Shown here one piece after another: positions 6,162 to 34,565 of a DNA stretch of 34,565 bases (positions within the stretch are counted from its first letter, which is position 1; the number at the start of each line of letters is the position of its first letter). Below the pieces are notes generated by a model. That model was given only the letters and a program-made list of their open reading frames with translations. It did no database searches and was not told where the DNA came from. Both the position numbers and the translations under genes were made by a program. The DNA is from an uncultured cyanobacterium (lineage in GTDB: Bacteria; Cyanobacteriota; Cyanobacteriia; Cyanobacteriales; Microcystaceae), in contig CAISPN010000004.1 in assembly GCA_903887375.1 (NCBI GenBank), positions 1-34,565 of the forward strand, in the 5' to 3' direction.

Positions 6162-8765
6162 TTAGACTAGATCTTTTTTTACTAGAACTATATCTTCATC
6201 TTTTGAAAGAGTAAAACCTAATTTTTGGCACAGTGTTTGCATCGCTAAATTATTCTGTAATATTTCACCATTTAGTGAGTTGAGTCCTTCTTGTTTGGCT
6301 ATTACAAGAAGATTAGAGAGCATTTTGTGGCCTATTCCTTTACCTTGATACTGATCACCAACTAAAAGAGCAAATTTTCCCTCTGGTTTGCTCAAATTGG
6401 CAATAGCCCAAATATCACCTTGATTGGATAGAGCTACTAAAGAAATCTCGCGATCATAGTCAATAAAACAAATGCGCGCTAATCTCTGATGAGATATCAT
6501 TTTTTGCCGTTTGATCAAGTGAAAATAGCGAAAATAAAAACTTTCACTAGAGATATTTTGGTAAAACTTGATCACAGATGGTTCATCTTCTGGTCTGATT
6601 GGCCTGAGGATAATCTCACTGCCATCAGCTAATTGCCAAGATTCTATGTATTGATCCAGATAAGCTCTGATAGATAATGGCGCTCTATTTTCACATAGAA
6701 CTATGCGCGCATCTAGAACCAAAAATTCACTATCTAAAGCCAATAGAGGATTGATATCAATTTCGGCTATAGCAGATTGTTCTACAACTAATTGACTAAA
6801 GCGCACTAGCAATAGTTCTAGTTGATTGAGATCTATTTTTTGCAGAGCTCTAGATATCTTTGTTTTTTCAATCATTCTTCTAGCAAGCGTGCTATTAAGT
6901 GGTGGTAATCCCAGAGCTGTATCTTGGAGAATTTCTACCATAGTTCCCCCACTACCAAAGAGCAAAACTGGGCCAAACTGACTATCAATGCTGCTACCTA
7001 AAATCAGTTCAAAGCCTCTTTGAAGTTGCATTGGCTCTATGCTCACTCCTTGAAAATCTGCACTATCTACTGCCTGTTCAATATCCCTATAGGCCTTAAT
7101 TACTTGTTCAGCATTGCTCAAATTAAGTTTTACTCCACCAACAGCGCTTTTGTGAGAAATAGTATAAGAGTTGAGCTTGAGAACTACTGGATAAACCATA
7201 GCTTGAGCAATCTCTACTGCCCGATTGGGACTATCAGCCAGCTCAGTTGAAATCACAGCAAAACCATAGGCTTTTAAAATCTCCTTAGATTCCCATTCAG
7301 TTAGTAAGCTTCTGCCAGCAGATTGGGCCGAGCTGATAATTTGCTGGATTGCTCTATGATCTATTTGCTTAAAATTCCCAGCATTGGGAGTCTCATAGAG
7401 AAGATTTAAATTGGCGCTATATTGCCACATCAGGTTAAACAAGCGCGCTGCGATATCAGGATAGGGCGCAGTATAGATATTAGCCCTATTAAGAATATCT
7501 TCACCACTAGCAATAGCCTTTCCACCCATCCAGCAGCACAACAATGGTTTTGCTGGGAAATTTTTAGTAAGTTGGACTATCTCTTGGGCGCAGCGGGTAG
7601 GATCGCTCATATCTTGGGGAGTGAGAATCACCAAAATCCCATCAGTATTAGGATCTTGGGCGATAATTTCTATGGCTTGACAGTAGCGCTCGGCCGTGGC
7701 GTCTCCCAAAATATCAATCGGATTAGCTTTACTCCAATATGCTGGCAGAACTTGATTTAATCTTTCTAAGGATTTGGAACTTAGCAAAGAGAGCTCACCG
7801 CCACCTGCAATCAGCGCGTCAGTAGCTAGCACACCAGGACCTCCAGCATTGGTGATGATGCTCAACCTGCGGCCAGAAGGTTTAGGTTGCTTAGCCAGCA
7901 GTTCAGCCATATTGAATAGCTCTTCGATAGAATCCACCCTCAAAACACCACAGCGAGCAAAGGCGGCATCTAAAACTTGATCACTACCACTGAGGCTACC
8001 TGTGTGAGAAGCAGCAGCTTTAGCAGCAGCCTGGGTGCGTCCCGCCTTGATCACTATGATGGGTTTAGTTAAAGCTACCTCTCTAGCAGCCGAAAGAAAA
8101 GAGCGCGCATCAACAATAGACTCCATATAGATGATAATGCTGCCAGTTTGAGGATCATCGCCTAAATAGTAAATTAAATCAGCCCAGCCTATATCGAGCA
8201 TTGAGCCTAAAGATACAAAAGCGCTAAATCCCCAATTTTGCGTAAAGCTCCAATCTAAAATCGCACTACAAAGAGCGCCGCTTTGACTCAAAAAAGCCAC
8301 CTTACCAGTCTTGGCCATACCGCTAGCAAAGGTTGCATTGAAATTTGTAGCTGGACTCATAATCCCCAGACAATTAGGGCCTATAATCCTCATTTGGGCT
8401 GTGCGGGCAACTTGCAATATTTGCTCTTCTAGAGCAAGGCCAGATTTTCCAGTTTCTTTAAAGCCAGCAGAGACAATTAAAACCCCTTTGACCCCGAAGT
8501 CTGCGCATTGTCTTACTATATCTAGAACAGTATGAGCCGGGGTAGCAATCACCGCTAGTTCAATTTTTTCTGCAATCTCTTGGATATTTTTATAGCTCTT
8601 AATTCCTAACACATTTTCATGTTTTGGATTGACTGGGTAGACAGTCCCACCAAAAGGATGAGAGATCAAGTTCCAAAGTAAAGTTCGCCCAAGCGAACCA
8701 GGACGATCACTAGCGCCAATAAGCGCTACGGTTTTGGGGGCAAAAAATACATCTAAAGAATTCAT
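6162..8765 (-). CDS. ADP-forming acetate/acyl-CoA synthetase fused to GNAT acetyltransferase
   Basis: 867 residues. Order: CoA-binding Rossmann domain (about 5-130; [24 protein letters not shown]); succinyl-CoA-ligase-like domain with [11 protein letters not shown], whose His254 is the expected phosphorylated catalytic residue; a second ligase-like domain; an ATP-grasp subdomain (from about 490, [12 protein letters not shown]); and a C-terminal GNAT domain (about 715-867; LRPIRPEDE and the acetyl-CoA loop [10 protein letters not shown]). The ligase part can convert acetyl-CoA + ADP + Pi to acetate + CoA + ATP. In relatives the GNAT part acetylates lysines of acyl-CoA synthetases. The gene starts 3 nt after the hypE stop, so it is almost certainly co-transcribed with it. 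Whether the ligase half is active is not shown. Confidence 0.9.
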
Positions 8766-8768
8766 AAA

Positions 8769-9773
8769 CTAACAGATTCTGGGCATTTGTTCACCACTAA
8801 GTAGAGCCAAGATGCGTGATTGCCCAAAGTTATTCTCTAAAGTTACCAAAGCTCTTGCTCTAGAGCTGACCTGGCCAATACAACTAGCATATCCTCCTAG
8901 AGAGCGCAAAATCTCTATAGTTTTGTCAACATCTTGCTCTTTAACAAAGGCTACAAATCTACCTTCATTGGCTACATAGAGTGGATCTAAACCAAGGAGT
9001 TCACAAGCGCCTCTAACTTCTTGGGAAACTGGAATCTGAGATTCTCTCAAATTTATTTGAATATTAGCAGATTGGGCAATTTCATTAAGAGCGCTAGCTA
9101 GTCCGCCGCGGGTGAGATCTCTCATAGCGTGAATCTCGATGCCATTTTGTAGCAAAGTTTGTACTATCTTATTCAAAGGAGCAAGATCGCTAGAAATTTG
9201 CGGCTCAAAATTGAGATCTTCTCTGGCAGAGAGTACAGCTAAGCCATGGCGACCTAGATCCCCATTGAGAATGATCCTATCGCCAACTTCTATCATAGAA
9301 GGGGCAATAATAGCCTGGCTTGATAGGCAACCAATACCAGTAGTATTGATGAAAATGCCATGGCCCCTGCCACGATCGACAACTTTTGTATCACCAGTGA
9401 CGATCTTCACTCCAGCTGTTAAAGCAGCTTGTTGCATAGAATGAACAATTCTTTGCAGTATATTGATCTCCAATCCTTCTTCTAAGATAAAAGCTGCGCT
9501 CAGATAAAGTGGTTGGGCCCCCATCATAGCTAGATCATTGACTGTGCCATAGACCGCTAGAGAACCAATATCTCCTCCGGCAAAAAAGAGAGGATCTACT
9601 ACATAACAATCGGTGGTAAAGGCTATATTCTCACTTCCTATTGTCAATAGGGCGGCATCTTGCTGAGCATTTTGACCCATAGCAAAACAGCTAGCAAATA
9701 AATTCTGGATCAAATGCTGCATGAGCCTACCACCGCCACCATGAGCTAGTAAGATCTTTTCATTACTGTTCAT
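8769..9773 (-). CDS. hypE: Hydrogenase maturation factor HypE
   Basis: 334 residues. HypE dehydrates the thiocarbamoyl group placed on its C-terminal Cys by HypF, giving the thiocyanate that donates CN to the NiFe active site. The protein has AHGGGGRLMQHLI at the N-terminus, then FTTDCYVVDPLFFAGGDIG and the AIRS/PurM-type VKIVTGDTKVVDRGRG, and ends in the required PRIC. Length and motifs are normal. It lies about 17 kb from the other hyp genes here. tRNA-Ala is 14 nt upstream on the same strand, so transcription may begin before the tRNA. Downstream is the acyl-CoA synthetase fusion. Confidence 0.97.
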   Translation of the reverse strand: MNSNEKILLAHGGGGRLMQHLIQNLFASCFAMGQNAQQDAALLTIGSENIAFTTDCYVVDPLFFAGGDIGSLAVYGTVNDLAMMGAQPLYLSAAFILEEGLEINILQRIVHSMQQAALTAGVKIVTGDTKVVDRGRGHGIFINTTGIGCLSSQAIIAPSMIEVGDRIILNGDLGRHGLAVLSAREDLNFEPQISSDLAPLNKIVQTLLQNGIEIHAMRDLTRGGLASALNEIAQSANIQINLRESQIPVSQEVRGACELLGLDPLYVANEGRFVAFVKEQDVDKTIEILRSLGGYASCIGQVSSRARALVTLENNFGQSRILALLSGEQMPRIC

Positions 9774-25314: not shown

Positions 25315-26448
25315 TCATGACTTCAATTTCAGATTCAAAACACTTAAAAAGAAACTAGAAAAGAATAATTGAACACCAAGAGCAAGACATGTAACAGAAG
25401 GAATGACTACTTTCATAACATTGGCGGGGTCCAGATAACCAAATAAAGCCCCTTGCCAGATTTTAAATGCGTAAATTGAACCGATTACGCCCAAGAGCAA
25501 TAAGACTACTGCAAAAATCAAGCCAGTCTCTAGATTAAAAAACCTGAGAATTTTCTTTAGTTTGGGATCTTGAGGCATCAGTCCTTCGTCTATAGCATAA
25601 GTCTTGGTAAAAACAGCAAAAATTACTATCTGAAAGCCTATAACCACAGCAGTTGCCGAATATAACAAGCTATGAACTTTACTTCCATTTAATAGAATTA
25701 ATGTACTTATAAGCCCAGCCAGTATGAGCAATAATCCTGGATAAAGAAACAACCACCGGGGACTATACAATAAAAGAAACCTCAAATGTCTCCAGCCATC
25801 ACGCCAACTGCGTAGGTGTGGAGGTCTACTCCTTCCATCGGGAGATAGAATAGTTGGCACCTCGGTAATACACAAGTCGTATAATGTTGCTTTAACGACC
25901 ATCTCGCTGGCGAACTCCATTCCAGTAGTTCTCAGATTGAGTCTTTCTATAGCTCGTTTGTTGAAACCTCTTAGTCCACAGTGAAAATCTCCGCATGGAC
26001 TATTAAAAAATAGTTTGCCAATGAAGGTCAATACCTGATTACCGAGATAGCGATGAAGCTTGGGCATCGCACCAGGTCTAATCCCACCTTTAAAGCGATT
26101 TCCCATCACCAAATCGTAGCCGGATCGCAACCTTTCTACAAAAGGGTTAAGGTTAATAAAATCATAACTATCATCGGCATCGCCCATGATAATATACTCT
26201 CCATATGCTGCTTCAATTCCACCTAAAAGAGCGCTCCCGTAACCTTTAGAGGTAATATTAACTACTCTTGCGCCCATTTTTTGAGCAATTTCTATAGAGC
26301 CGTCTTTACTGCCATTGTCTGCAACGAGTACCTCTCCTACAATCTGGTTGTTCTTTAAATAAGATAGTGCCTTTTCAATACATACAGCAATTGTTTCAGC
26401 TTCATCTAGACAGGGCATGACTATAGAAAGCTCAAGTAGCTCATTCAT
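25315..26448 (-). CDS. DPM1/GtrB-like glycosyltransferase with C-terminal membrane helices
   Basis: 377 residues from ATG 26448. The GT-A domain has LSIVMPCLDEAETIAVCIEK, VLVADNGSKDGSIEIA, the metal-binding YIIMGDADDSYDF and FHCGLRGFNKRAIERL. Four hydrophobic segments follow (about 240-375). This is the polyprenyl-phosphate sugar synthase layout, which makes lipid-linked sugar donors for GT-C enzymes. The frame runs further upstream to 26616, but that 56-residue extension only overlaps hypD and has no family similarity. The ATG overlaps the hypD stop region by 8 nt (ATGAATGA), so translation is coupled. Confidence 0.9.
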   Translation of the reverse strand: MNELLELSIVMPCLDEAETIAVCIEKALSYLKNNQIVGEVLVADNGSKDGSIEIAQKMGARVVNITSKGYGSALLGGIEAAYGEYIIMGDADDSYDFINLNPFVERLRSGYDLVMGNRFKGGIRPGAMPKLHRYLGNQVLTFIGKLFFNSPCGDFHCGLRGFNKRAIERLNLRTTGMEFASEMVVKATLYDLCITEVPTILSPDGRSRPPHLRSWRDGWRHLRFLLLYSPRWLFLYPGLLLILAGLISTLILLNGSKVHSLLYSATAVVIGFQIVIFAVFTKTYAIDEGLMPQDPKLKKILRFFNLETGLIFAVVLLLLGVIGSIYAFKIWQGALFGYLDPANVMKVVIPSVTCLALGVQLFFSSFFLSVLNLKLKS

Positions 26449-27520
26449 ATAAATAATAAGCAGCGCAAGCTCCCTCAGAAGAAACCATAGGTGCCCCAAG
26501 GGGATGCTCTGGTTGACAATCAATGCCAAAATGGGGACATTGTTCTGGTTTGCGTAGACCTTGTAAAATTTCACCGCAGATAGTTGAGCTATCTTTTTGA
26601 GATAACGGTAAATCACTAAAGCGCTCTAGAGCATCAAAAAAGCGATATTTTTCCCTTAAAGCCCAACCACTATTGCTAATTTGTCCAATACCTCGCCATT
26701 GGCGATCTACAACTGTAAAAACCTCATCAATCATCTTTAAAGCTGGCAGGTTACCTGTCATTTTAACCGAGCGGCAATAGCAATTTTTTACAGTAAATTC
26801 ACCCATTTCCAATTGCTTAATACAGTGATAGATTCCTTGGAGGATATCTGTAGGTTCAAATCCCGTTACAACAATGGGTACTTGATATTGCTGGGCGATT
26901 GGTATATAAGCTTGATAACCGGTTACAGTGCAGACATGGCCCGCTGCTAAAAACCCTTGAATTTGGGATTGGGGAGAATCTAACAGTTTGATCATAGCTG
27001 GAGGAACTAATACATGAGCGCAGACTATTGAGAAATTTTTTAATTGCAAATCAGCAGCTCTTTTTACAGCTAAAGCCGTAGCTGGAGCAGTAGTTTCAAA
27101 GCCTATCGCCAAAAACACTATTTCTTTTTCTGGTAAATTTTGGGCAAGCAAGAGCGCATCAAGTGGAGAATAAACCATCTTTATATCTGCCCCATTTGCC
27201 TTAGCCAGGGCAAGATCTCCGTAAGTACCCGGCACATGCAACATATCCCCAAAGGTACAAAAAATCACCTCTTTTTGCTGGGTTGCTATAGCTATAGATT
27301 GATCAAGCGTGAGGGCTGGAGTGACGCAGACAGGGCAGCCTGGACCATGAACCAAGGAGATTGAATCTGGCAAGAGCCTATCAAGTCCATACTTGAGGAT
27401 AGAGTGAGTCTGACCACCACAGATTTCCATAATCTGCCAGTGATTTTTTGTAATCGAGGCAATCGCCGCCGTTAGCTGCTCGATCAATTTAGCTTGGCGG
27501 AATTCATCAACATATTTCAT
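26441..27520 (-). CDS. hypD: Hydrogenase maturation factor HypD
   Basis: 359 residues. HypD, with HypC, is the scaffold on which Fe(CN)2CO is assembled. Motifs: IMEICGGQTHSIL, LVHGPGCPVCVTP, FGDMLHVPGTYGDL, AIGFETTAPATAL, GFEPTDILQGIY. The C-terminal iron-sulfur region has CPHFGIDCQPEHPLGAPMVS and ends in GACAAYYLYE. Length is normal. It overlaps hypC by 14 nt on one side and a glycosyltransferase by 8 nt on the other. Confidence 0.97.
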   Translation of the reverse strand: MKYVDEFRQAKLIEQLTAAIASITKNHWQIMEICGGQTHSILKYGLDRLLPDSISLVHGPGCPVCVTPALTLDQSIAIATQQKEVIFCTFGDMLHVPGTYGDLALAKANGADIKMVYSPLDALLLAQNLPEKEIVFLAIGFETTAPATALAVKRAADLQLKNFSIVCAHVLVPPAMIKLLDSPQSQIQGFLAAGHVCTVTGYQAYIPIAQQYQVPIVVTGFEPTDILQGIYHCIKQLEMGEFTVKNCYCRSVKMTGNLPALKMIDEVFTVVDRQWRGIGQISNSGWALREKYRFFDALERFSDLPLSQKDSSTICGEILQGLRKPEQCPHFGIDCQPEHPLGAPMVSSEGACAAYYLYE

Positions 27521-27746
27521 CTATTTGACCTATTATCTGGAGATCTTTTAAAGTCTCTTTAGCTTCTATAGGATCTAGAAGGCTGATAGCTACCCCGGCA
27601 TGTACTACGATATAGTCACCTAGATTAGCTTCAGGTAAATAAGCTAGAGAAATATTTTTAGAAATTCCTGCAAAACGTACCTTAGCCATCTTTTCTAGTC
27701 CATCGCCAAAAACATAGAGAATCTCACCGGGAATTGCCAAACACAT
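27507..27746 (-). CDS. hypC: Hydrogenase maturation chaperone HypC
   Basis: 79 residues starting MCLAIPGEIL. Cys2 and His69-type chemistry of the family bind the Fe(CN)2CO unit; here the next conserved block is LGDYIVVHAGVAISLLDPIEA. It shuttles the iron unit with HypD to the HoxH precursor. AGAGGAAG lies about 5 nt upstream of ATG 27746. It is 15 nt after the hypF stop and overlaps hypD by 14 nt. Confidence 0.96.
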   Translation of the reverse strand: MCLAIPGEILYVFGDGLEKMAKVRFAGISKNISLAYLPEANLGDYIVVHAGVAISLLDPIEAKETLKDLQIIGQIDEIC

Positions 27747-27761
27747 CTATCTTCCTCTGTT

Positions 27762-29984
27762 TTATTTATATTTATAAGAACATGCCAAGATCTGACCGGC
27801 TGCAATACCCCCATCATTAGGAGGAATTTGCTGATTCCAAAAGGGCTGAAAACCAGCACAAGTTAGATTGTTAATAGCGTTTTCTATTAGATAGCGATTT
27901 TGGAAACAGCCACCAGTTAAAATTACATTGGTTATGCCTTGTTGTTGGGCAACTTGGAGAATAATTTCAACCAAACTATTGTGAAAAAGCTGGGCAATCT
28001 CATGCTTGGATCTATTATTGGCAATATCTTTTACGATATCTTTAATCATTGGTTGCCAATCAATTAGGCCAAGCGGTGAAATGGTAAAAGGATAAAACCG
28101 GGAAAAATTAGCCAAATTGCAGAGCGATTCAACAGCTAAAGCTGCCTGTCCAGAAAAACTGACCCTATCAACTAAGCCCAACAGATAGGCCAGCCCATCA
28201 AACAATCTACCTACACTGGAAGTATGTACTGTATTAATATTCTTGTTGAGCATTATTTTGAGAAATTCTTGCTCGATCTTTTCTTCTAATCCTGCTTGGT
28301 GGAGTAAACCTGCCGCAGAGCGCAGAGGATCTGTGCTATCTCCTCTGACTAAAGGAAATGGGCGCAGATGAGCTACCCTTTGCCAACCTAGCTTGGGAGC
28401 AATTTTTATAAACTCACCTCCCCAAATTGTTCCATCTAGTCCGTAACCGGTTCCATCCCAAGCCACTCCCAAAACCGGCAATTCTATCTGATGCTCAGCT
28501 AGACAAGAGAAAACATGCGCGCAGTGATGCTGCACTTGAACTAGGGGGACATGCAACTTCTTGGCCATTTCCGTTGCCAAAATAGTTGAATTGTAATCAG
28601 GATGAGCATCACAGGCGATAACTTCTGGTTTAAAACTATAGAGATTGCTCATATGGGTGCTCACATCTTGGCAATGCTGCCAACTTCTAAGGTTATCCAA
28701 ATCTCCAATATGAGCGCTCAGTGCCAATACATCACTTGAACCAAAGGCGATAGCGTTTCTCTCTTGGGCCCCATAAGATAATATATTTTTATTAATTTTG
28801 GGTATAGCTAAAGAAACTGGAGCATAGCCTCTACCTAGGCGCAGCAAGACAGGTTTATTTGCTACAATTTGTACTAAAGAATCATCTAGTGGTATTTTAA
28901 TATTTCGATTATGCAGCAAGAAAAGATCGCCAATATTAGCTAATCTTGAGAGAGCTTGCTCGTTATCAATGCAAATCGGCTCACCAGGAAGATTGCCACT
29001 GGTAGCTACCACAGGAAAATCGAGCTCATCCATCAGCAAATGGTGCAAGGGGGTATAGGGTAGCATTGCGCCTAAGCAGGGAGTATTAGGAGCAACTTCA
29101 GTATACTTATCAATAAAACATTTCAACAAAACTATTGGAGAAGCCGCCGATTGCAAAAGCTCGGCCTCTGTTGAAGAAACTTGCACATCGAGCCTCAAAG
29201 CTGACAAATTGGGATAAAGCAGAGCAAATGGTTTAGCAGGACGATTTTTAAGCTTGCGTAGCCTAGCGATAGCCTTTTGATTGCAACCATCTACTAAAAG
29301 TTGAAAGCCTCCTAAACCTTTAAGGGCAACAATCAAACCAGATTTGATTGCCTCGCAAGCTAATTGGAGAGCTTGATCTTTTTTAGCTTTGAGATGACCT
29401 TGGCTATCTACAAGCTCTAGTTCAGGTCCACAATTAGGGCAGGCAATCGGCTGGGCATGAAAACGTCTACTATGGGGATCTTCATATTCGGCTTTGCAAT
29501 TTGCGCACATTGCAAAGCTATTCATAGTAGTATTGACCCTGTCATAGGGGAGCGATTCAATAATCGAAAAACGCGGACCACAATCAGTGCAATTTATAAA
29601 GGGATAGCGATAGCGACGATTATCAGGATCCCACATCTCCTCCAAGCATTTAGTACAAGTAGCCAGATCTCTTAAAACATTAAAAGAACAATCAGTTGAA
29701 TTTTTGAGAGAATCTTTAAAAGTAAAATCACGATAATTTATAGGTTCAAGCCAATTTTTGTGTATATAGTATATTTGACTATGAATAGGCTTATCTTTGG
29801 ATAATAGCTCTACAAATTTATCTAGTTTATCTTTTGTTCCTTCTAACTCTATTGCTACTGCTTGGCCTTGGTTTTGCACATAGCCAGTTAAATTTAATCT
29901 TTGAGCTAAGTTATAAATAAAAGGACGAAAGCCAACACCTTGGACTATCCCTTCAATCTTTAGAGCTAGCCGTTTTTTGCTCAT
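27762..29984 (-). CDS. hypF: Carbamoyltransferase HypF
   Basis: 740 residues, normal length. Order: acylphosphatase domain (about 5-92; GIVQGVGFRPFIYN with Arg20); two zinc fingers (Cys110, 113, 132, 135 and 160, 163, 182, 185); YrdC-like domain (about 200-385; KNRPAKPFALL, PLHHLLMDEL, ATSGNLPGEP); and the Kae1-like carbamoyltransferase (about 400-740; QVQHHCAHVFSCLAEHQ, VAWDGTGYGLDGTIWGGEF, LTGGCFQNRYLIE). It makes carbamoyl-AMP and passes the group to HypE. The start ATG lies within the last codons of hypA (32-nt overlap). Confidence 0.97.
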   Translation of the reverse strand: MSKKRLALKIEGIVQGVGFRPFIYNLAQRLNLTGYVQNQGQAVAIELEGTKDKLDKFVELLSKDKPIHSQIYYIHKNWLEPINYRDFTFKDSLKNSTDCSFNVLRDLATCTKCLEEMWDPDNRRYRYPFINCTDCGPRFSIIESLPYDRVNTTMNSFAMCANCKAEYEDPHSRRFHAQPIACPNCGPELELVDSQGHLKAKKDQALQLACEAIKSGLIVALKGLGGFQLLVDGCNQKAIARLRKLKNRPAKPFALLYPNLSALRLDVQVSSTEAELLQSAASPIVLLKCFIDKYTEVAPNTPCLGAMLPYTPLHHLLMDELDFPVVATSGNLPGEPICIDNEQALSRLANIGDLFLLHNRNIKIPLDDSLVQIVANKPVLLRLGRGYAPVSLAIPKINKNILSYGAQERNAIAFGSSDVLALSAHIGDLDNLRSWQHCQDVSTHMSNLYSFKPEVIACDAHPDYNSTILATEMAKKLHVPLVQVQHHCAHVFSCLAEHQIELPVLGVAWDGTGYGLDGTIWGGEFIKIAPKLGWQRVAHLRPFPLVRGDSTDPLRSAAGLLHQAGLEEKIEQEFLKIMLNKNINTVHTSSVGRLFDGLAYLLGLVDRVSFSGQAALAVESLCNLANFSRFYPFTISPLGLIDWQPMIKDIVKDIANNRSKHEIAQLFHNSLVEIILQVAQQQGITNVILTGGCFQNRYLIENAINNLTCAGFQPFWNQQIPPNDGGIAAGQILACSYKYK

Positions 29985-30237
29985 AATTTAATTGTGCTAC
30001 CTCTATTGAGATTAAGGTTAATTCACTGTCATCACTTAGCCATTCGATATACAGTATGGACTCAGTGGCAATGGTTCCTTCTTTGGAGATAGCAAAGCCC
30101 AATTCAAGAGCTTCTGGCATTACCCCAGAGAGTTTGCCTGCCTGTAAACTAATTTTTTCAATCTTGTTAAATCCATTATTGATAGCTTGTTGACAGGCAA
30201 TATTGAGAATTTGCTCAATCAGGCTTAGTTCATGCAT
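29953..30237 (-). CDS. hypA: Hydrogenase nickel chaperone HypA, zinc domain missing
   Basis: 94 residues against the usual 113-118. The N-terminus is normal: MHELSLIEQIL (Met1-His2-Glu3 bind nickel) and the core KISLQAGKLSGVMPEALELGF. At residues 61-80 ILYIEWL runs straight into SDDSELTLISIEV. Family members have a zinc finger of four Cys (two C-x2-C pairs) between these two blocks; here none of these Cys remains, and the only Cys is Cys15. The frame is open throughout, so this is a clean in-frame loss, not a frameshift. It overlaps hoxW by 13 nt and hypF by 32 nt. Nickel donation to HypB/HoxH may be altered. Confidence 0.85.
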   Translation of the reverse strand: MHELSLIEQILNIACQQAINNGFNKIEKISLQAGKLSGVMPEALELGFAISKEGTIATESILYIEWLSDDSELTLISIEVAQLNYEQKTASSKD

Positions 30238-30665
30238 AGCTCTCTAAAAAAACATTTCAAAATATTTATAGCCTGGTACTTAGCCTGCATAGTAACAGGA
30301 CTCAGGGGAGCTCCTAGAGAAAAATCCAGAGCAGCTACTTTGATTAACCATACCTGCGGGGATCTGTCATAGAGACATTGTGCTAGAGAAATCAAACAAT
30401 TGATATTGCAATGATGAGTAAATCCTTCTACATAATCAGCTTTAGCTATTTGCTCAATAGTTGCCCCAGTTGATAACTCTAAAGAGGCATCAATAAATAT
30501 CACTCTTGCAAACTGGGCTAATTTTTCAGCTAGATCTAGAGTGAGCTGAGTGCATGTGAGCACCTCGACTTTTTCAATTTGCCAGTTGATAACCTCTTGA
30601 GCAATATCAATTCCGACAGCATCATCACCTCTTAGCGTATTACCATAGCCAATAATTAAATCCAT
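30225..30665 (-). CDS. hoxW: Hydrogenase maturation protease HoxW
   Basis: 146 residues of the M52 (HycI/HoxW) family, which cuts the C-terminal peptide off the large subunit after nickel is in. The nickel-sensing motif is GYGNTLRGDDAVGIDIA, with the first Asp/Glu ligand at the end of it, followed by RVIFIDAS and the later HHCNINCLISLAQ with the His ligand. The presence of hoxH diverging from it supports HoxW over HupW. It is first in the minus-strand unit and overlaps hypA by 13 nt. Confidence 0.92.
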   Translation of the reverse strand: MDLIIGYGNTLRGDDAVGIDIAQEVINWQIEKVEVLTCTQLTLDLAEKLAQFARVIFIDASLELSTGATIEQIAKADYVEGFTHHCNINCLISLAQCLYDRSPQVWLIKVAALDFSLGAPLSPVTMQAKYQAINILKCFFRELCMN

Positions 30666-30785: not shown

Positions 30786-31250
30786 TTGAATATTAGTCAA
30801 TATATTATGTCTGATTTTGAGTTAGTAGATATGACAATGAGAAAGCATCAATTCAGAGCTGATACTCTAATTGAGGTACTTCATAAAGCTCAACAATCAA
30901 GGGGTTTTCTCGATAGTGAGGTTTTATTGCATATTGCTCGAGGACTCAAGTTGCCTCCTAGTAGGGTCTATGGAGTGGCAACGTTTTATCATCTTTTTTC
31001 ACTAGAACCTAAGGCTTTACATAGCTGTGTAGTTTGTATAGGTAGTGCCTGTCATATCAGAGGAGCCAATCAAATCAAACAGGCCTTAGAAAATAAATTA
31101 ATCAACAATCAGCAGATATCTCTGACCTTTGTGCGTTGTCTGGGCGCTTGTGGTATTGCCCCGATTATAGTAATCGATGGAGAGATTAAGGGTAAACAGA
31201 CTATTGAATCTGCCCTATTAAATATTCAACAAAAATGCTATGGATGCTAG
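30786..31250 (+). CDS. hoxE: Bidirectional NiFe hydrogenase subunit HoxE
   Basis: 154 residues, NuoE/thioredoxin-like [2Fe-2S] subunit of the diaphorase. Ligands: Cys84, Cys89 (CIGSAC) and Cys118, Cys122 (CLGAC). Core: PPSRVYGVATFYHLFSLEPK. I chose TTG 30786 because GGAG at 30774-30777 sits 8 nt before it, whereas the in-frame ATG at 30807 has no such site. It overlaps hoxF by 11 nt. HoxE lets the diaphorase exchange electrons with ferredoxin or the photosynthetic chain. Confidence 0.93.
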   Translation: MNISQYIMSDFELVDMTMRKHQFRADTLIEVLHKAQQSRGFLDSEVLLHIARGLKLPPSRVYGVATFYHLFSLEPKALHSCVVCIGSACHIRGANQIKQALENKLINNQQISLTFVRCLGACGIAPIIVIDGEIKGKQTIESALLNIQQKCYGC

Positions 31251-32811
31251 AGAATTACTAGAAATTTGCCATAAGGAACACGCTAGAACTAAGCCTGTAG
31301 TAATACGTTGCTGCAGCGCGGCCGGTTGTCTAGCCTGTGGAGGAGTTGAGCTTAAAAGGGCATTAGAGCTTTTAAGTAGTAACAATCCTGAGATACAGAT
31401 AGAAACCGTAGGCTGTATGCGCCTCTGTGGCAAAGGTCCTCTATTAGAAGTCTCTGGAATTCTCTATCAAGAGGTAAATATAGAGCAAGCAGCAGCTATT
31501 GTCTCTGGTAAGCAAACAAATGAGCTAAATATCTGCGATCTCAACCATCCCTTTTTTAGTAAACAACTGCCAATTGTTCTAGAAAATTCAGGCAAAATCA
31601 ATCCTGAGCGTATTGAATCCTATATAGCAGTTGGCGGCTATAGAGAGCTACTGAATGTGCTTACTACCATGCATCCTCAGGAGGTTATAGAACAGATCAG
31701 TATCAGTGGACTAAGAGGGCGAGGTGGGGCAGGTTACCCAACAGGACTCAAATGGACGACAGTTGCCAAAATGCCCGGAGCGCAAAAGTACGTAATTTGT
31801 AATGCCGATGAAGGAGATCCAGGCGCTTTTATGGACCGCGCCGTGCTAGAGAGCGATCCCCACCGCGTGCTTGAAGGGATGACGATTGCTGGCTATGCGG
31901 TAGGTGCTAAAGACGGCTATATCTATATCAGGGCCGAATATTCCCTAGCTATTAAAAGATTAGAACAAGCAATCAACCAAAGCAGACAATATGAGCTCAG
32001 TGGTAGGGGAATCTTTGGTTCTAGTTTTGATTTTAAGATTGAAATTAGAATTGGAGCTGGGGCGTTTGTCTGCGGGGAGGAAACAGCTTTGATTCAATCG
32101 ATTCAAGGAGGAAGAGGTACACCCTCACCCCGGCCACCTTATCCTGCCGAATCGGGGCTGTGGGGACATCCCACTTTAATCAACAATGTTGAAACCCTGG
32201 CCAACATTGTACCTATAATGCGCCAAGGAGGGGATTGGTATGCCAAAATCGGCACATCCAAAAGTAAAGGAACTAAAGTATTTGCTCTCAGCGGCAACGT
32301 CAAAAATACTGGACTTGTGGAAGTAGCAATGGGAACGACAATTGCCCAGATTGTCCAAGAGATGGGGGATGGGCAGCTTGTTAAAGCCGTTCAAACCGGT
32401 GGACCTTCTGGTGGATGTGTACCAGCCCATTTACTTGATACCCCGATAGATTATGAATCAATGCAACAGCTCGGGACAATCATTGGCTCAGGTGGGATGA
32501 TTGTCATCGGCGAACAAGCTTCAATGGTTGAGATGGCCCATTTTTATATGCAGTTCTGCCGCGAAGAAAGCTGCGGCAAATGTATTCCCTGTAGAGCAGG
32601 TACTGTGCAATTAGAAATGCTGCTTCTTGATTTGCTCAATCATCGCTCTAGCTTTGCTCAACTTGAACAAATTAAAGAACTTGCCTATATGGTTAAGGAA
32701 ATGAGCCTCTGTGGCTTAGGTCAAGCTGCGCCCAATCCCCTTTTAAGCACAATAAAGTATTTTGAAAATGAGTATTTGGAATTACTCCCCAAACAAGGAG
32801 AAAGCATATGA
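31240..32811 (+). CDS. hoxF: Hydrogenase diaphorase subunit HoxF
   Basis: 523 residues, NuoF-like. A thioredoxin-like N-terminal [2Fe-2S] domain (Cys25, 30, 59, 63), then the NAD(H)-binding LRGRGGAGYPTGLKW (158-172), the FMN-binding NADEGDPGAFMDR (188-200), and the C-terminal [4Fe-4S] site Cys445, 448, 451 and 491 (ESCGKCIPCRAG and CGLGQ). It oxidises or reduces NAD(P)H. The start ATG lies inside hoxE, and the stop overlaps the hoxU start by 4 nt (ATGA). Confidence 0.97.
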   Translation: MDARELLEICHKEHARTKPVVIRCCSAAGCLACGGVELKRALELLSSNNPEIQIETVGCMRLCGKGPLLEVSGILYQEVNIEQAAAIVSGKQTNELNICDLNHPFFSKQLPIVLENSGKINPERIESYIAVGGYRELLNVLTTMHPQEVIEQISISGLRGRGGAGYPTGLKWTTVAKMPGAQKYVICNADEGDPGAFMDRAVLESDPHRVLEGMTIAGYAVGAKDGYIYIRAEYSLAIKRLEQAINQSRQYELSGRGIFGSSFDFKIEIRIGAGAFVCGEETALIQSIQGGRGTPSPRPPYPAESGLWGHPTLINNVETLANIVPIMRQGGDWYAKIGTSKSKGTKVFALSGNVKNTGLVEVAMGTTIAQIVQEMGDGQLVKAVQTGGPSGGCVPAHLLDTPIDYESMQQLGTIIGSGGMIVIGEQASMVEMAHFYMQFCREESCGKCIPCRAGTVQLEMLLLDLLNHRSSFAQLEQIKELAYMVKEMSLCGLGQAAPNPLLSTIKYFENEYLELLPKQGESI

Positions 32812-33524
32812 CAGTAGTCACCTTAGAAATCAACGGAATTGCTGTAGGGGTCAGCGATGGTACTACCATTTATCAAGCAGCTCTTGAGGCAAAAATTTAT
32901 ATTCCCACCCTTTGCCATTTGGAAGGATTGTCCCCAGTAGGAGCCTGCCGGCTTTGTTTAGTTGAGCAAATCGGCTCTAGTAAACTACTGGCTTCTTGTT
33001 GCACCAAGGTCTCTGAGGGTATGGAGATCTTGACTAATACTGCAAAATTACAACAATATCGGCGCATGGATGTGGAGTTGCTCTTTAGCGAAGGTAACCA
33101 CATCTGCGCAGTCTGCGTAGCTGATGGTGCATGTGAATTACAAGATGCAGCCTTAGCAGTAGGCATGGATCATAGTCGCTTTAACTATCGTTTTCCAGAT
33201 CGCCATGTGGATCTTTCTCATACCATGTTTGGCATAGATCATAACCGCTGCATTCTTTGCACCCGCTGTGTGAGAGTCTGTGATGAGATTGAAGGAGCCC
33301 ATGTCTGGGATGTAGCCCAAAGAGGAGCTCAATGCTATATAGTTTCCGGATTAAACCAGCCTTGGGGTGAAGTAGATGCCTGCACCAGTTGTGGTAAGTG
33401 TGTGGATGCCTGTCCTACTGGCGCTATTTTTATTAAGGGTACTACAGTTGGACTCAAAGAAGCTGGACATCAAAAACTAGATTTTTTAATCAAGGCAAGG
33501 GAATTCAAACAATGGACAAGATAA
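32808..33524 (+). CDS. hoxU: Hydrogenase diaphorase subunit HoxU
   Basis: 238 residues, NuoG N-terminal-like. Clusters in order: [2Fe-2S] with Cys36, 47, 50, 64; a His-Cys set (His98, Cys100, 103, 109) in NHICAVCVADGAC; two ferredoxin-type [4Fe-4S] clusters (148, 151, 154, 158 and 192, 195, 198, 202). It carries electrons between HoxF and the hydrogenase dimer. It overlaps hoxF by 4 nt and hoxY by 13 nt, and there are no intervening ORFs as in some Synechocystis-type loci. Confidence 0.96.
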   Translation: MTVVTLEINGIAVGVSDGTTIYQAALEAKIYIPTLCHLEGLSPVGACRLCLVEQIGSSKLLASCCTKVSEGMEILTNTAKLQQYRRMDVELLFSEGNHICAVCVADGACELQDAALAVGMDHSRFNYRFPDRHVDLSHTMFGIDHNRCILCTRCVRVCDEIEGAHVWDVAQRGAQCYIVSGLNQPWGEVDACTSCGKCVDACPTGAIFIKGTTVGLKEAGHQKLDFLIKAREFKQWTR

Positions 33525-34015
33525 GATTTGCCACAGTTTGGCTAACCGGTTGTTCAGGCTGCCATATGTCTTTTCTGGATTTAGATGAATGGCTCTTTGA
33601 ACTAATAGAAAAAGTTGATGTGGTCTATAGTCCAGTAGGCTCTGATATCAAGCAATATCCCCCCAATGTAGATTTGGTTTTAGTTGAAGGTGGTATCGGT
33701 AATCAAGACAACCTAAATCTGATTAAAAAAGTGCGTCAAAATACTAAGACACTAGTATCTTTTGGAGATTGTGCAATCACAGCCAATGTTCCCGGTATGC
33801 GCAATATGCTCACTGGCAGCCAATTAATCCTGGAGCGCTCCTATCTGGAGCTAGCTGATAAAAGTGGGCAAATCCCTCAAGAGCCAGGCATCATACCTCT
33901 ACTACTAGAGCAAGTTTTGCCCATTCACCAAGTGATAGAAGTTGATTTTTTCCTACCTGGCTGCCCTCCTTCTGGTGAAGAAATTAAAAATGCCCTGCTT
34001 GCTCTATTGGGCTGA
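33512..34015 (+). CDS. hoxY: NiFe hydrogenase small subunit HoxY
   Basis: 167 residues. Proximal [4Fe-4S] ligands are Cys14 and Cys17 ([17 protein letters not shown]), Cys87 (FGDCAIT) and Cys151 ([11 protein letters not shown]). No Tat signal is present, as expected for a cytoplasmic bidirectional enzyme. Only one cluster is held, unlike uptake HupS. It overlaps hoxU by 13 nt and lies 5 nt before hoxH. Confidence 0.96.
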
Positions 34016-34020
34016 TTATT

Positions 34021-34565
34021 ATGAACAAAGTTATCGTGATTGACCCACTTACACGCATTGAAGGACATGCCAAAATATCTATTTATCTAGATGAAATGGG
34101 CATGGTCAAAGATGCGAGATTTCATGTTACTGAATTTCGAGGCTTTGAGAGGTTTTGCCAAGGAAGGCCGCTAGCTGAAATGCCCGCAATCACCTCTAGA
34201 ATCTGTGGCATCTGTCCAGTTAGCCATCTGCTAGCTTCTTCCAAGGCGGCAGATAAGATTCTCTCAGTAGAGATTCCAGTATCTGCCGAAAAGCTGCGCC
34301 GTTTGATGAATCTAGCCCAAATCATTCAATCACATGCTCTTTCTTTTTTTCATCTGAGTAGTCCAGATTTTTTACTCGGTTGGGATAGCCAGATAGCCAA
34401 ACGTAATATCTTTGGTTTAATGGAAGCCAATCCCGAGTTTGCACGCTCTGGAATCAGATTGCGCCAATTTGGCCAAGGAATCATCGAAACTCTAGGAAAT
34501 AAAAAAATTCACTCTAGCTGCTGGTCTGTTCCTGGTGGGGTGAATAATGCCCTTTCTCTTGAGGG
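34021..34565 (+). CDS. hoxH: NiFe hydrogenase large subunit HoxH, 3' truncated by window edge
   Basis: The first 181 codons of about 470. The start is [20 protein letters not shown], the L1 signature of large subunits, followed by [20 protein letters not shown] with Cys62 and Cys65, two of the four Ni-Fe ligands. The other pair and the C-terminal peptide cut by HoxW lie beyond the right edge. It is the active-site subunit of the bidirectional hydrogenase. Confidence 0.96.

Follow-up and report, generated by a model that had tools for sequence, protein, structure and literature searches.

Why does HypA carry a zinc site distant from its nickel site? The reason is unsettled, and the zinc-site mutants, as published studies describe them, damage the arm of HypA yet retain it; single zinc-Cys mutants of H. 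pylori HypA are reported to keep 9-60% of hydrogenase activity, as against 12% without hypA (PMC5557546). Here we describe a cyanobacterial locus in which evolution has cleanly removed the arm and kept the rest. The locus lies in a stretch of 34,565 nucleotides (the window), which is the whole of contig C4 in the draft genome of an uncultured member of the Microcystaceae (G000; 2.93 Mb, 99.99% complete, 124 contigs). An earlier note, made from the letters alone, had described a HypA lacking its zinc-finger domain within an otherwise intact Hox/Hyp locus. Our analysis supports that description and confirms the gene's position, strand and sequence, and the same deletion is present in a second genome, a public MAG from the same genus (G001; 96% complete, 210 contigs). 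The relevant features of the window are listed below.

29953 to 30237, minus strand: hypA, zinc-less, 94 residues; matches PF01155 positions 1-66 of 112, CxxC absent, same form in G001
30040 to 30237, minus strand: residues 1-66 of HypA, kept, including the MHE nickel terminus (PF01155 match; modelled helix 2-20, strand 26-33, helix 41-51, strand 61-66)
30019 to 30039, minus strand: residues 67-73, a predicted turn in place of the zinc arm (alignment and model)
29998 to 30018, minus strand: residues 74-80, the last HypA strand, retained (alignment and model)
30225 to 30665, minus strand: hydrogenase maturation protease, hoxW by position (TIGR00072 67.2 bits, cut-off 47.45; 13-base overlap with the hypA start)
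27762 to 29984, minus strand: hypF (TIGR00143 781 bits; 32-base overlap with the hypA end)
27507 to 27746, minus strand: hypC (TIGR00074 66.0 bits, cut-off 48)
26441 to 27520, minus strand: hypD (TIGR00075 476 bits)
8769 to 9773, minus strand: hypE (TIGR02124 435.6 bits)
30786 to 31250, plus strand: hoxE (PF01257 over cut-off; HoxE model 191.9 bits, under its cut-off of 224)
31240 to 32811, plus strand: hoxF, named by position (PF01512 and PF10589 over cut-off)
32808 to 33524, plus strand: hoxU (NF005745 HoxU 383.4 bits, cut-off 333)
33512 to 34015, plus strand: hoxY, small subunit, named by position (PF01058 98.2 bits)
34021 to 34565, plus strand: hoxH, first part (PF00374; remainder on contig C27, with an exact 119-base shared end)

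Two further frames of the minus strand adjoin these genes. One, at 6162-8765 beside hypE, encodes an 867-residue fusion of an ADP-forming acyl-CoA ligase (CoA-binding, ligase and ATP-grasp) with a C-terminal GNAT acetyltransferase; the other, a glycosyltransferase-like frame at 25315-26616, shares 176 bases with the 3' end of hypD and probably has its true start downstream.

The short HypA begins with the ATG at 30237 (MHELSLIEQILNIACQ) and joins ILYIEWL directly to SDDSELTLISIEV. The strand LYIEW leads through a short acidic turn to ELTLISIEV, which aligns with the final strand of the full-length proteins, and the segment with the four-Cys CxxC...CxxC zinc arm is absent from between them. The protein scores 54.8 bits against the Pfam HypA profile PF01155 (cut-off 28.9), residues 1-66 covering profile positions 1-66 of 112 only, and CxxC is absent from both short proteins, which at 48.2 and 48.1 bits do not reach the NCBIfam equivalog cut-off of TIGR00100 (88.1 bits). 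A zinc ribbon encoded in another frame near hypA was considered and rejected; window positions 29601-30300 contain one CxxC, which belongs to HypF.

The HypA of G001 is 91 residues long, has the same gap and is 58% identical to that of the window. Because the proteins of eight neighbouring genes share 63-83% identity between the two genomes, these represent separate species, and a deletion common to both rules out a sequencing slip; the objection that resequencing might restore the missing segment is thus countered. A second, full-length HypA serving Hox, which the earlier note had named as a possible refutation, was not found, since G000 and G001 each gave a single HypA match at E <= 0.001. 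Purifying selection seems to act on the gene, with dN/dS of about 0.1-0.3 between the two copies: 0.20 (NG86) and 0.27 (YN00) over the whole gene and 0.11 and 0.22 over codons 2-79, values that are soft, as they come from two sequences with dS close to saturation. Values for the eight neighbours lie between 0.07 and 0.20 (YN00 gave no result in one case), and the dN of hypA is the highest among the nine genes compared. In a neutral simulation without indels, 32 of 5000 pairs kept both hypA copies without a stop.

How rare this form is was gauged at several depths. A profile search gave a HypA match in 48 of 50 genomes of the GTDB family, and 46 of these 48 have a copy that matches profile positions 1-111 or 1-112; only those of G000 and G001 end at 66. 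The 30 HypA proteins of loci L003-L032 are 109-127 residues long, each with both CxxC pairs by eye, and a script counted two CxxC motifs in all 28 from loci L074-L101. A narrow contig scan with two short peptides returned 12 loci, comprising the G001 record and 11 full-length HypA proteins of 113-131 residues. A profile built on the zinc-less pair, which as the product of two sequences may let other HypA types escape, matched 245 of 388 genomes in an order sample and 101 of 386 in a phylum sample whose draw did not include G001. Apart from the window's, every frame in the phylum sample, and every frame among the matches listed for the order sample, has at least 110 residues. Another zinc-less HypA was thus found neither in the peptide scan nor in the order sample (among the matches listed) nor in the phylum sample; a published example was not found either, a weak result given that the literature search covered few subscription papers.

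A tree of 58 rows groups the two zinc-less proteins at 100/100 and places them in a 31-row clade together with HypA of other families (92/87), beside L108 (96/84); their stem measures 1.6 changes per column, and long branches leave their exact place unsure. We conclude that the short protein is a variant of the known HypA family, real, conserved and apparently selected, whose function we infer from what it keeps and what surrounds it.

Structure prediction suggests how the arm could be removed without disturbing the remainder. An AlphaFold2 model, computed from an input alignment of the window and G001 proteins with eight full-length HypA (eight of the 11 from the contig scan), has a mean pLDDT of 86 and contains the helices and strands listed above, closing with the strand at residues 74-80; over the five models the value runs from 68 to 86, and residues 81-94 are poorly determined. 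Structural alignment places model residues 1-86 on residues 1-139 of T. kodakarensis HypA (TkHypA, 3a43_B; Z 14.4, rmsd 1.4 A over 86 residues), and the next matches are chains of the HypAB-Ni (5aun) and HyhL-HypA (5yxy) complexes, at Z 14.2. By this model the arm is thus inserted between two strands that are neighbours in the fold, and where it has been lost a short hairpin joins them; the predicted fold of the nickel domain is intact. The best non-HypA match has Z 7.2, and the RidA/YabJ folds at that value and below were dismissed as relatives and taken as a common arrangement. A phmmer search with the short HypA alone did not usefully retrieve any HypA structure, 6g81 appearing at an E-value of 0.99, below unrelated kinases; a profile including full-length relatives does find HypA structures.

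Both species have the same MHE nickel terminus, which argues against the short HypA being a repurposed docking or assembly factor that aids HoxH assembly and carries no nickel, the metal entering unaided. Such a role would draw on the reports, which also suit the reading favoured below, that E. coli HypA binds HycE without HypB (PMC7055735) and that nickel can rescue an E. coli hypB mutant (PMC12134894); with the nickel terminus kept, we regard it as improbable.

The earlier note had also held that all other maturation genes look intact. This stands for the window, where HypC, HypD, HypE, HypF and the maturation protease exceed their NCBIfam cut-offs, as HoxE, HoxF, HoxU, HoxY and the first part of HoxH exceed Pfam cut-offs, but a search of the whole of G000 found no HypB. 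Indeed, no protein passed the HypB cut-off (TIGR00073) in any of the three genus members, G000, G001 and G002, while 47 of the 50 family genomes exceed it, that is, all 47 outside the genus. (In the family member G032, HypB is split over two frames at C1:5226246-5226873, which may mean a sequencing error or a pseudogene.) The best HypB-profile match in G000, a G3E protein on contig C113, was rejected as HypB at 82.2 bits against the 121.2 needed; it is UreG (347.8 bits, cut-off 204.2). The HypB of locus L118, used as query at E 1e-3, matched nothing in L053, L054 or the window; its only match in L055 and in L056 was UreG, at 29% and 26% identity.

Elsewhere, HypA and HypB go together. HypB was found at 1e-30 in 305 of the 388 order-sample genomes and in 241 of the 245 matched by the zinc-less HypA profile, a pairing counted per genome, so that where there are several hyp copies, as in many genomes, HypB may serve another HypA. 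The four HypA-positive genomes without it are G000, G001, G097 (90% complete, 380 contigs) and G324 (1510 contigs). Within the family, hypB lies no more than 600 bases from hypA in 19 of 21 HypA places (17 of the 46 full-length family genomes), and the two that lie away from it are the Hox-type HypA of G047 and G044. In L118 (G638), which has a HypA grouping with the two short proteins, the gene order is protease, hypA, hypB (294 bits on the HypB profile), two frames, hypF and later hypC and hypD; in L119 (G210) it is protease, hypA, then hypB. We take the two frames between hypB and hypF in L118 (9160-10007) to be xisH/xisI-like. Since hypA overlaps hypF by 32 bases in G000 and by 4 in G001, hypB is absent from the place it occupies in L118 and L119. 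This changes what the short HypA means, in that the lineage which lost the arm is also without HypA's GTPase partner.

Both drafts are fragmented, and a full-length hypA or hypB might in principle exist and have been missed in each; the completeness of the two assemblies and the recurrence of the same two absences make such a gap the least credible of the explanations considered. Decay in progress deserves more weight. Nickel insertion would have been lost and Hox kept for a diaphorase-type role without the NiFe site, leaving the short HypA as a remnant. The missing HypB of the whole genus fits this idea, and the long stem of the zinc-less pair, the high dN of hypA and the third genus member, G002, in which NiFe hydrogenase and HypA were not found over cut-offs, are compatible with it. 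In Synechocystis, moreover, the importance of Hox in the dark is reported to be independent of its catalytic site (PMC4517062). Two reports count against a functional short HypA: Synechocystis loses its Hox activity when either hypA1 or hypB1 is deleted (PMC4517062), and H. pylori HypA suffers from single zinc-Cys mutations as described above (PMC5557546). Decay is nevertheless hard to square with a dN/dS well under 1 and open frames in both species, with a predicted fold that closes cleanly, and with the retention of hypC to hypF, the protease and the HoxH ligand motifs. The HoxH of G001 is a single frame with both motifs (one of ten residues, the other DPCLSCSTH), and that of G000 has its two motifs on the two contigs that share the exact 119-base end. 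On balance we think decay unlikely.

The best-supported reading is that nickel travels by a route independent of the zinc site. We lean, with modest confidence, toward a working, minimal, zinc-free and HypB-independent HypA that carries nickel at its MHE end to HoxH from UreE/UreG or a free pool, HypB having been lost as well. In T. kodakarensis HypAB, His98 of HypA is reported to shift to the MHE end and to complete a nanomolar nickel site, and in the archaeal complex with the immature large subunit (HyhL) the N-tail of the latter contacts the HypA nickel site (PMC7055735). TkHypA residue 98 aligns between the two CxxC pairs, in the segment missing from the short HypA, a detail to be read as archaeal, given that TkHypA is longer here than cyanobacterial HypA and works with another type of HypB. 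As the histidine that completes the site on HypB binding comes from the missing region, joint loss of the arm and HypB makes sense. By this analogy, the lost part would be the one that answers to HypB in the best-known complex, and the kept part the nickel carrier that meets the large subunit.

The sequence of events would then run as follows. The zinc arm would have served mainly the HypB-driven step, in which the histidine swings from the arm region to the MHE end to form a tight nickel site. Once HypB was gone, the arm would no longer have been needed, or the losses may have come in the reverse order. What is left, the MHE site and the alpha/beta domain to which the large-subunit tail reaches in the archaeal complex, would receive nickel either from UreE/UreG, the urease chaperones, or from the cytosolic pool and pass it to HoxH, which the protease would then cleave. 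Nickel binding, HoxH docking, the nickel source, the order of the losses and enzyme activity are what we infer from this comparison. More tentatively, the zinc arm of HypA in general may be the receiver of a HypB-driven switch that can be lost with HypB, leaving a single-domain nickel carrier supplied by UreE/UreG.

Candidate nickel donors are encoded in the genus. Urease alpha and UreE occur in all three members and UreG in two (G000 and G001); G002 carries urease alpha and UreE, and at 90% completeness its lack of UreG may be a gap. In G000, ureG (L055 7744-8355, contig C113) is separate from urease alpha (contig C44) and UreE (contig C100). H. pylori HypA and UreE are reported to share a nickel site (PMC7055735), and UreG has been suggested as a stand-in in hypB-less Nitrosococcus oceani (PMC7285500, section 3.4.1); in Synechocystis, a ureG mutation left hydrogenase unaffected (PMC5991728). 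Another NTPase, such as a COG0523-type G3E protein, might instead replace HypB and drive the short HypA: G000 and G001 each hold three strong non-UreG PF02492 matches, plus weaker ones, which we read as COG0523-type. Hydrogenase-less G002, however, also has PF02492 matches, two of them full and a third at the edge of a contig, so that no such protein seems peculiar to the Hox carriers, and we consider such a replacement very unlikely.

If the zinc-free carrier is real, delivery of nickel by HypA would be separable from its NTPase-coupled control. Two species that keep Hox, have a trimmed arm and have seemingly lost HypB form a natural test of the arm's purpose, and the 94-residue HypA is a tool for asking whether the arm contributes to folding, to nickel affinity or to the step that involves HypB. 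Work on NiFe hydrogenases might also gain simpler sets of maturation genes from it.

Among known systems, the closest is HypA/HybF itself (PF01155; TIGR00100; 3A43, 2KDX, 6G81), which shares with the short HypA the MHE terminus, the alpha/beta nickel domain, the last strand and a gene position beside hydrogenase maturation genes; its structures from T. kodakarensis (3A43) and H. pylori (2KDX, 6G81) match the fold of the model at Z 12.4-14.4. Unlike HypA/HybF, the short proteins, of 94 and 91 residues, have no zinc arm and no CxxC, and a HypB partner was not found in their genomes. Some cyanobacteria are reported to carry a hydrogenase without some hyp genes (PMC5186783), and the window's genus resembles them in its incomplete hyp set; that account, in the part concerned, leaves the missing genes unnamed and does not mention a short HypA. 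The Nitrosococcus oceani AFC132-type hydrogenase belongs to Group 3b, whereas the one here is Hox, and the comparison is by description, which as given omits the arm of their HypA (PMC7285500). The hypAFCDE clusters of AFC132 and others described there nonetheless pair a NiFe hydrogenase with hypA followed by hypF, hypC and hypD, without hypB, as in the locus described here.
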